Source of the DNA: a virus
Virus record (IMG/VR): IMGVR_UViG_3300017751_000016
Coordinates: 1 to 60,616 of that record
Reading direction: 5' to 3' (one strand)
Length of the DNA stretch: 60,616 nucleotides
Part shown: positions 78 to 60,616 of the stretch, piece after piece
How positions within the stretch are numbered: the first letter of the stretch is position 1
Layout: each line of letters begins with the position of its first letter
The notes under the pieces: generated by a model
Told to the model about the DNA's origin: nothing
Database searches by the model: none
What the model saw: only the letters and a program-made list of their open reading frames with translations
Made by a program: the position numbers and the translations under genes

Positions 78-227
78 GGGGCTATTCATAGATTCGACAG
101 ACAACTGAAAGCATGTGGAGAATCGACTAACGCAGAAGGTCGTTAAACTAGAAGCAAAAATATAATCGCAGCTAATGACGATTACTATGAGGGTCTACGC
201 CTAGCAGCGTAAACTTCATCGGGGTTT
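78..227 (+). ncRNA. ssrA: tmRNA coding piece (permuted, two-piece type)
   Basis: The 5' end GGGGCTATTCATAGATTCGACAG-like start (78-100) matches the conserved tmRNA beginning GGGGCTG-ATTC-GGATTCGAC. A hairpin with CGACT...GGTCG (124-141) corresponds to the pseudoknot before the tag. The resume codon is GCA at 168, preceded by ATAATC as in the usual ATAGTC-GCA context. The tag reading frame 168-212 encodes A-ANDDYYEGLRLAA and stops with TAA; the A-N-D start and L-A-A end are typical of degradation tags. The tag is followed directly by a terminator rather than by further pseudoknots and a T-arm, as expected when the gene is circularly permuted and the acceptor piece lies upstream. The product would rescue stalled ribosomes and tag proteins for ClpXP. 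Two-piece tmRNA is typical of alphaproteobacteria and has been reported in marine myophages. Confidence 0.85.
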
Positions 228-261
228 GAAGGAGCCTTGTTACCCAAGTCCTTCTTTTTTT
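228..261 (+). terminator. Rho-independent terminator after tmRNA
   Basis: GAAGGA (228-233) pairs with TCCTTC (249-254), CTTG (236-239) pairs with CAAG (245-248) inside it, and seven T follow (255-261). A competing hairpin CTTCA (214-218)/TGAAG (227-231) belongs to the 3' end of the tmRNA coding piece and overlaps the terminator stem. Confidence 0.75.
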
Positions 262-279
262 AACCAATGGAGAAAAATT

Positions 280-351
280 ATGTGGACTAAGCCAACTTAC
301 GAAAATGTACGACTCGGCTTTGAAATCACCATGTATTTCAAAACTCGTTAA
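280..351 (+). CDS. pqqA: PqqA-like PQQ precursor peptide (23 aa)
   Basis: A 23-codon gene, ATG at 280 and TAA at 349-351, with GGAG at 269-272 as ribosome binding site, 7 nt before the start. The peptide begins MWTKPTYENVRLG and continues FEITMYFKTR. It matches the PqqA family over its whole length: MW-KP at the start, the R-x-G-x-E segment, and the invariant Glu15-x3-Tyr19 pair that the radical SAM enzyme PqqE (with PqqD) cross-links and that becomes the PQQ skeleton. Known bacterial PqqA peptides are 22-24 aa, so this copy looks full length and functional. No pqqBCDE genes are visible here; the phage would feed the host pathway. PQQ serves periplasmic methanol, alcohol and sugar dehydrogenases. 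The gene lies between the tmRNA terminator and the endolysin gene. Confidence 0.85.
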   Translation: MWTKPTYENVRLGFEITMYFKTR

Positions 352-358
352 AATGCTA

Positions 359-376
359 GTGGGGTATGGGTTCCAC
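359..376 (+). other. Hairpin between pqqA and endolysin gene
   Basis: GTGGGG (359-364) can pair with TTCCAC (371-376), four Watson-Crick and two wobble pairs, loop of six. It has no T-run, so it is more likely an RNA-stability or attenuating structure than a terminator. Role unknown. Confidence 0.3.
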
Positions 377-410
377 CCTTAAAAACGGACCTTAATTAAA
401 GGATACAATC

Positions 411-986
411 ATGTATATATTAGAAGATACGCTTGCTATGTTAGGTGCAGTTTTTGTAGTAACATCAGCAAGTATGTTTGCTTATAATGAAGATGATACG
501 CCTATAGAATTAGAAGTAATAACAACGGTTGAAGAGAATTCTTCATGGTATGATCTTGCACAAAAAAATACCGAGTGTTTAGCAACGAATATTTATTTTG
601 AAGCTCGTGGTGAGTCATACGAAGGCAAGAAGGCAGTAGCTTTTGTTACTCTGAATCGTGTAGAAAGTCCTAATTTTCCTGATACCATATGTGATGTTGT
701 TTATCAAGCTCGACACTCTCGTTGGTGGAAGACAGAAAGAGATCGTCTTGTGCCGATCAAACATCAATGTCAGTTTAGCTGGTACTGTGATGGTAAATCT
801 GATTACATCAGAAACATTCACGAGTACGAAGAGTTATACAAATTAGCGAGTGAGATTATTGTCGGTAAGCATAGCGACAACACAGGCGGCGCTGATTACT
901 ATCACTCAACAAAAGTCAAGCCTGATTGGCGATTAGCATTTACAAGAACGACTAAAATAGATAAACATATATTTTATGCTGAATAA
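411..986 (+). CDS. SleB/CwlJ-like cell wall hydrolase (endolysin)
   Basis: 191 aa. The C-terminal domain from about residue 55 is a Hydrolase_2 (SleB/CwlJ) fold: CLATNIYFEARGES with the catalytic Glu64, the AFVTLNRV segment, and the late motif CQFSWYCDGKS (residues 120-130). A hydrophobic stretch at residues 7-24 looks like a signal anchor or signal-arrest sequence, so export through the Sec system is likely. The enzyme should cut peptidoglycan glycan strands at lysis; this family is common in marine T4-like phages in place of T4 lysozyme. Start chosen at 411, with AAAGGA 8 nt upstream. The stop overlaps the next gene by 11 nt. Confidence 0.85.
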   Translation: MYILEDTLAMLGAVFVVTSASMFAYNEDDTPIELEVITTVEENSSWYDLAQKNTECLATNIYFEARGESYEGKKAVAFVTLNRVESPNFPDTICDVVYQARHSRWWKTERDRLVPIKHQCQFSWYCDGKSDYIRNIHEYEELYKLASEIIVGKHSDNTGGADYYHSTKVKPDWRLAFTRTTKIDKHIFYAE

Positions 987-60032: not shown

Positions 60033-60616
60033 ATGAAATCAATTATCGGAACAGTACTAGTAGCACCAGCACTATTGCTTATGCTTTCTACTACAGCATC
60101 ACGGCCAGTAATGGCACAAACATATACAGAAAAAGTTGCTGACATTATCAACAACAATTGCGTAGTCTGTCACAGAGAAGGTGGCATTGGGCCAATGAGC
60201 TTTGAGACTTACGAGCAAGTCAGACCATGGGCACCACTTATCTCGCTCAAAGTAGCAACACGAGAAATGCCTCCATACGCATACGATCATGGCATCGGCA
60301 TTCAAAGTTTACAAGGCGATTGGCGTCTATCGCAAAACGATATTGATACCGTAGTCGCTTGGGTAAACGGTGGTTCACTATACGGCGATCCAGATACGAT
60401 GGTGCAAGCACCACCTCTTAGAGATCCAGAAGCATGGAATTTCGAAGCCGACTTTGGCGCACCTGATGCAATCATTCCTTCAGTAGCAATTGATATTCCT
60501 GCGAACGGTAATGATTTGTGGCACAAACATTTAGTACCTACAGGTCTTACTGAAGATCGTTGTATTAAAGCAGTACAAGTTAAGCCTCGTGGCAATGCAA
60601 AGGCAGTAGTGCATCA
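60033..60616 (+). CDS. Exported c-type cytochrome / monooxygenase-like protein (partial)
   Basis: 194 codons open to the window end; ATG 60033 with AGAGG ribosome site. A signal peptide (KSIIGTVLVAPALLLMLSTTA, then VMA-QT cleavage) sends it to the periplasm. The mature N-terminus has VADIINNNCVVCHREGGIGPMSFETYEQVRPW: a CxxCH haem site at about 43-47. The distal Met ligand may be the one in REMPPYAYD. DWRLSQNDIDTVVAWVNGGSLYGDP ends the cytochrome domain. The following IDIPANGNDLWHKHLVPTGLTEDRCIKAVQVKPRGNAKAVVH is the start of the domain found in copper ascorbate-dependent monooxygenase-like bacterial proteins, where a VHH follows. The family is bacterial and not known to me in phages. Phage late promoter upstream argues it is a true viral gene. 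Confidence 0.78.
   Translation, partial: MKSIIGTVLVAPALLLMLSTTASRPVMAQTYTEKVADIINNNCVVCHREGGIGPMSFETYEQVRPWAPLISLKVATREMPPYAYDHGIGIQSLQGDWRLSQNDIDTVVAWVNGGSLYGDPDTMVQAPPLRDPEAWNFEADFGAPDAIIPSVAIDIPANGNDLWHKHLVPTGLTEDRCIKAVQVKPRGNAKAVVH

Follow-up and report, generated by a model that had tools for sequence, protein, structure and literature searches.

A predicted two-piece tmRNA gene of mosaic structure at the end of a T4-like marine phage contig

The extreme left end of the DNA stretch analysed here (the window, an entire linear virus contig of 60,616 bases) very probably holds two parts, spacer and coding piece, of a permuted tmRNA gene that looks functional and belongs to a T4-like marine phage, and this gene appears, from comparison with related phage sequences, to be a recombinational mosaic. 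tmRNA is an RNA by which stalled ribosomes are rescued and their incomplete proteins tagged. The T4-like gene set of the window includes gp32, helicase loader, terminase, sheath, tube, portal, scaffold and major head proteins. Among isolated phages, those with the best-matching portal proteins are Melnitz, an OM43 phage (54.5%), and Mosig, a Pelagibacter phage (54.1%).

Coding piece, spacer and missing acceptor piece

The elements of the gene that precede its 3' hairpin are the following (L-numbers denote the virus contigs compared).

1-77, + strand: pre-tmRNA spacer (intervening segment), bases 5-81 of 81; 77/77 identical to L005 and L006, 75/77 to L007
78-254, + strand: coding piece of the two-piece tmRNA (Rfam, ARAGORN on L013, complete homologues, phage model)
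78-84, + strand: 5' side of the acceptor stem (GGGGCTA), predicted to pair with TAGCTCC of the acceptor piece beyond the contig edge
124-167, + strand: PK1-like region between the tRNA-like part and the tag, upstream of the latter; 44/44 identical to L013
168-212, + strand: resume codon GCA, tag frame AANDDYYEGLRLAA and stop codon TAA (translation; ARAGORN on L013 and L015)

Sequence comparison confirmed the assignment of positions 78-254 to a circularly permuted, two-piece tmRNA, of which they form the predicted coding piece; the original prediction of such a gene is supported by homologues, Rfam, ARAGORN and covariation. The conserved 5' end, resume codon and LAA-ending tag on which it had relied were all found in the window. 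In particular, the 5' signature GGGGCTATTCATAGATTCGACAG, the PK1-like region, the resume codon and the LAA-ending tag frame with its stop codon lie within 78-212, and the window thus has both features of a coding piece, the GGGG..TTCGAC 5' end and a downstream tag frame. A sequence model of phage coding pieces, derived from 14 other phages with the present tag group left out, has its sole match in the window at 79-212 (E=1.6e-11). The predicted start at position 78 holds, whereas the end has to be moved from 227 to about 254.

At their own cut-offs, the Rfam models called nothing in the window. Under permissive limits, tmRNA_permuted scored 21.7 bits over 1-212 (cut-off 47) and was flagged as cut off at the 5' end, and beta_tmRNA gave a sub-threshold 18.8 bits at 202-254. 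These scores stay below threshold because the acceptor piece lies outside the contig. The complete homologues with the same tag segment score 77-86 bits with tmRNA_permuted, above the cut-off of 47 (L013, 86.0; L016, 79.9; L014, 77.5). A complete acceptor piece together with this tag segment is found in four contigs, L013, L014, L015 and L016, and ARAGORN called L013 as tmRNA* with the same tag as the window. A standard one-piece tmRNA with a downstream 3' part was also considered and rejected: ARAGORN finds none, and pqqA and an endolysin gene follow instead.

The acceptor piece, with its T-arm and CCA located upstream and pairing with the coding piece, is present in all complete relatives, including L005 with the same spacer and L013 with the same tag; the relatives are the many complete genes recovered from virus contigs by pattern and protein scans. 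In L005 and L006, the acceptor piece ends with TAGCTCCACCA and is followed by the spacer start AAAGAACACTG. Base 1 of the window corresponds to base 5 of their 81-base spacer, identity extending through the following 123 bases, and since the spacers are identical, the acceptor piece can be placed just off the contig edge, four bases to the left of base 1. In agreement with this placement, TAGCTCC-ACCA is present in L005 and L007 alongside an identical GGGGCTA. The acceptor stem, formed by the acceptor piece with the coding piece, has 7/7 pairs in all complete relatives and shows covariation. Taken together, the acceptor and T stems are paired in 168/168 cells across 14 distinct relatives, with double changes in 8 of the 12 pairs, a result matched by 0/500 shuffles. 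RNAalifold applied to the coding pieces yielded no consensus pairs, and PK1 was therefore assigned by position only. When folded as a single strand, the coding piece shows no more stability than shuffled sequences (z -0.49).

The spacer at 1-77 is thus more than plain flanking DNA of the gene. Its ends in the window pair with each other (AACACTG at 1-7 with CAGTGTT at 63-69), extending the acceptor stem. Self-pairing of the spacer ends was observed in 17 of 18 relatives, with the stem opening 0-2 bases past CCA and closing 4-6 bases short of GGGG; the terminal spacer stem thereby continues the acceptor helix. Shuffled spacers equalled the observed pairing in 0-9 of 500 trials for 16 relatives and in 51 of 500 for L204; L159 has a 10-base spacer without a terminal stem. 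The likely role of the spacer stem is to offer the two cleavage sites to the processing enzymes, and the spacer (1-77) would be removed on maturation. A tRNA at 1-70, suggested by a 7-bp end helix and a TTCGAAT loop, has no anticodon arm by eye and is not called by ARAGORN; this reading was rejected because the sequence is the tmRNA spacer of L005-L007. The T-loop-like motif itself, G-TTCGAAT-C at spacer positions 46-62 on a 5-bp stem with one mismatch, was seen by eye in none of the other spacer types.

Conservation points to a functional tmRNA. Prophages are known to leave decayed ssrA pieces behind, and a similarly broken piece of the gene, without function in this phage, would fit the presence of only a part of the gene in the window, as well as the altered LTA tag end of two relatives. 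However, the truncation coincides with the contig end, all four contigs that share its tag segment have the whole gene with the acceptor pairing preserved, and the stems covary, all of which makes such a remnant highly improbable. By analogy with known two-piece tmRNAs, the transcript of a functional gene would fold so that the acceptor piece, the spacer stem and the coding piece are lined up, and tRNA-processing enzymes would excise the spacer to leave two RNAs joined by base pairing. Both RNAs, charged with alanine, would enter stalled ribosomes with the host SmpB; alanine and AANDDYYEGLRLAA would then be appended, and the LAA end would be recognised by the ordinary proteases of the host. 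No SmpB gene was found in the 60,616-base fragment.

Degradation tag and 3' hairpin

The tag is followed by two further elements.

221-254, + strand: 3' pseudoknot-like hairpin (PK2); beta_tmRNA match at 202-254, outer stem covarying in 6 phages
255-261, + strand: run of seven T after the hairpin, without counterpart after the same hairpin in L159, L160 and L163

With GCA (168-170) as resume codon, the gene encodes the tag AANDDYYEGLRLAA, which takes up 14 codons (168-209) before the stop codon at 210-212. It ends with LAA as predicted and is one residue longer than initially given. The arginine before LAA had been regarded as unusual in comparison with ANDENYALAA of E. coli, which proved the wrong yardstick: ARAGORN finds arginine at this position in several other phage tags, namely AANDDYYGDVRLAA, ANDNYYTEELRLAA and ANDAFYGEDRLAA. 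Given this recurrence, a new protease is not indicated, and the proposal that tagged proteins are redirected to a different protease or degradation rate gained no support. A different protease is possible, and nothing in the sequence calls for one.

A more general version of this proposal, according to which the tag has evolved for a different protease or rate to the benefit of the phage, appears improbable. It would account for the strong variation of tags beside a conserved tRNA-like body (mean pairwise identity 0.65 versus 0.88 in one family, in a table where the simple tag finder misread some starts, the tags being named here after ARAGORN), for the recurrence of RLAA and for the existence of LTA variants. 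On the other hand, the usual AAND start and LAA end are both retained, exchange of segments explains the variation, and no other sequence feature points to a new protease. The LTA ends were observed in L014 and L016, whose tmRNA genes look otherwise intact, and may reflect relaxed selection on the degron. Another deviating tag frame was noted in the phage tmRNA at positions 1368-1600 of L270, where ARAGORN reports 32 residues, ANTKSGTVKVTVSKAAFFGREAANDSAVLLAA; it resembles a longer reading frame placed ahead of an ordinary tag.

In the 3' hairpin, the stem is formed by 228-233 and 249-254, and GGGT (222-225) is able to pair with ACCC (242-245). This hairpin had been taken for a terminator located immediately after the tag. 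A structure that acts only as a transcription terminator between the tmRNA and pqqA, outside the RNA, would agree with the perfect hairpin followed by seven T. We nevertheless consider it quite improbable: the hairpin (228-254) recurs with a covarying stem but without the T-run in L159, L160 and L163, and it corresponds to the 3' element in the beta permuted model of Rfam. It is therefore first of all a conserved 3' element of the RNA, and together with the T-run it may in addition stop transcription as an intrinsic terminator. A simple terminator scan called none at this position, probably because of its loop-length limit.

Permuted tmRNAs of phages are already known. The Rfam family RF04321, tmRNA_permuted, was merged from the alpha, beta and cyano models RF01849-RF01851 (PMC11915505). 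The present gene shares with it the order of acceptor piece, spacer and coding piece, the tRNA-like domain, and the tag followed by a 3' hairpin, and differs in that the window holds only the spacer and the coding piece. In its 3' hairpin the gene follows the beta type, yet the overall beta scores of L013 and L014 are below the beta cut-off. The two-piece ssrA with a glutamine riboswitch mentioned in the original prediction has indeed been published: it belongs to the Methylophilales phage Melnitz and was reported as alpha-type with the riboswitch in its 3' domain (PMC9004378). Melnitz is likewise a marine T4-like myophage with a permuted tmRNA, but its tag is ANDNYVPVDYALAA. Rfam gave no match for the glutamine riboswitch within the window or in the surroundings of the homologous genes of L013, L014, L005 and L017.

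Mosaic structure and exchange of tag segments

The comparison of the locus with its relatives involves four more features.

111-123, + strand: stretch that would hold the left exchange point, identical in both parental types
280-351, + strand: pqqA, PQQ precursor peptide, cargo of the exchanged segment (Pfam PqqA, PF08042, 39.5 bits, cut-off 21.1)
355-391, + strand: orphan 3' hairpin (PK2) of the replaced tmRNA version, aligning with the PK2 region of L017 and L019
411-986, + strand: cell wall hydrolase (endolysin-like) gene (Hydrolase_2, 91 bits; PHROG endolysin)

The window is identical to L005 up to position 123 and to L013 from position 111 on. Bases 124 to about 600, comprising the tag, hairpin, pqqA and half of the endolysin gene, are ~99% identical to one phage group, whereas the flanks match others. 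Identity to L013 is 98-100% from about 101 to 600 and mostly 67-85% beyond; the pattern is reversed for L017, with 94-100% from 650 onward. The right exchange point falls inside the endolysin gene, at about 601-650, away from the contig end.

The replaced version of the gene has left a trace. L017 and L012 have the tag ANDEAFALAA and lack pqqA. Positions 354-410 of the window align (47/57) with the PK2 region of L017, which is directly 3' of its tag. Similarly, GCTAGTGGGGTATGGGTTCCACC of the orphan hairpin is identical in L019, where the hairpin directly follows the tag, and GCTAGTGGGGTATGGGTTCCACCC, located after pqqA in the window, is the 3' hairpin directly 3' of the tag in L012 and L019. 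The old hairpin thus stands after pqqA, and therefore the segment with the new tag, hairpin and pqqA was placed ahead of it. Since L013-L016 share this arrangement of new tag, pqqA and orphan hairpin, it predates the right-hand exchange of the window itself. Both the adjoining pqqA and the mosaic origin of the tag segment had been overlooked in the initial reading.

The two junctions differ in their position on the contig. The right junction and the orphan hairpin are internal, while the left junction is found no more than 123 bases from the contig end, in a ~36-base stretch common to many phages, and the join of an L005-type spacer to this tag could thus be an assembly error. In that case, the phage would in truth have a different type of spacer and acceptor stem, such as the one in L012 or L013. 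The contig starts inside the spacer, the shared bases could mislead an assembler, and the combination of spacer and tag occurs in no other contig found; nevertheless, comparable mosaics exist inside other contigs (L005 and L007, L014, L259 with L260), and we regard a chimera as rather unlikely, if a real possibility. The right junction and the orphan PK2, being internal, would be unaffected by it.

Tag replacement was observed in several other phages. Between L259 and L260, identity reaches 95-100% in more than 450 bases through the end of PK1 and 93-100% in the hairpin, but drops to 67-72% in the tag segment of ~50 bases, their tags being ANDETFALAA and ANDAFYGEDRLAA, respectively. L005 and L007 have the body, spacer and PK1 in common and the tags ANDEAFALAA and ANDSVYSLAA. 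L257 and L258 also combine the same body with different tags. In L257, the replaced tag ANDESYRIAA with its own PK2 is followed by a homing-endonuclease-like ORF and then by an orphan PK2, which is the hairpin following the tag in L258 (same contig as L204). This ORF, located on the reverse strand, matches PHROG 314, homing endonuclease (1.7e-12), and has no Pfam match.

In our main reading, the conserved tRNA-like body is the common ground for an exchange of the PK1/tag/PK2 segment and its downstream cargo among phages, presumably by homologous exchange in the conserved flanks. In the window, the segment from 124 to about 600 very probably introduced pqqA together with half of the endolysin gene, its 5' part, and orphaned the old PK2. 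A general scheme can be proposed, for which we see the chances as evenly divided: phage two-piece tmRNA genes would serve as exchange platforms, their conserved tRNA-like body receiving cassettes of tag and 3' hairpin from co-infecting phages, along with cargo (pqqA or a homing endonuclease, for instance). Because an incoming cassette supplies its own tag and 3' end, the function of the tmRNA would survive, the old 3' hairpin remaining as a scar.

T4-like phages possess free-standing homing endonucleases with co-conversion of flanking DNA. The endonuclease-like ORF in the tmRNA region of L257 resembles these systems as a possible motor of tag exchange, and homing endonucleases perhaps drive some of the exchanges; in contrast, the cassette of the window has no endonuclease, and homing is only putative. 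No description of tag exchange as a cassette was found in the literature, most subscription papers being outside the search. Under the proposed scheme, phage tmRNA genes would acquire their degradation tag as an exchangeable module instead of altering it by slow drift, and orphan hairpins would give a simple readout of past exchanges. It also makes testable whether the phage gains from a change of tag or the tag hitch-hikes with mobile cargo. A tmRNA, a metabolic peptide gene and a lysis gene would here share a single exchange hotspot.

pqqA, the endolysin gene and possible hosts

The pqqA gene is located between the 3' hairpin and the endolysin gene, and Glu and Tyr are invariant in the aligned phage and bacterial PqqA peptides. 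A viral pqqA has been reported in a Lake Baikal methylotroph phage, which likewise encodes the PqqA peptide; in the part of that report available to us, pqqA is discussed with methanol dehydrogenase and not with tmRNA (PMC7678222).

The closest bacterial pqqA genes come mostly from marine gammaproteobacteria, in a comparison of genomes that were found by pqqA and include no Methylophilales. A host origin of the tag cassette was considered and is not supported, since four of five such genomes have a full one-piece tmRNA with a different tag, and no tmRNA lies near pqqA in them.

We found pqqA in at least 356 virus stretches, some of which may be host-like, and, not annotated as such, in isolated OM43 phages. 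The gene appears widespread and mostly unannotated in phages (window 280-351; L056-L062; L167-L246), and it is also present in a 340-kb virus contig (L177) and in a 335-kb contig binned as Neomarinimicrobiota (L067). It occurs within about 600 bases after the tmRNA in three more contigs, L195, L202 and L204. In L264, the tmRNA is followed by pqqA and, further on, by a SleB-like hydrolase, both genes being named by eye.

A tmRNA just upstream of a SleB-type cell wall hydrolase gene, with several tag types, was observed at about half of 40 loci found through the hydrolase; the adjacency is seen at window positions 78-986 and in L013, L017, L019, L029 and L264. Directly upstream of the tmRNA, L013 has a glycine-zipper protein gene (2126-2512). 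Finally, the right contig end of the window (60033-60616) contains a partial ORF that encodes a CxxCH motif and resembles cytochrome c only weakly, at a score under the Pfam cut-off, and the DNA of this ORF has an 84% identical stretch in L007.
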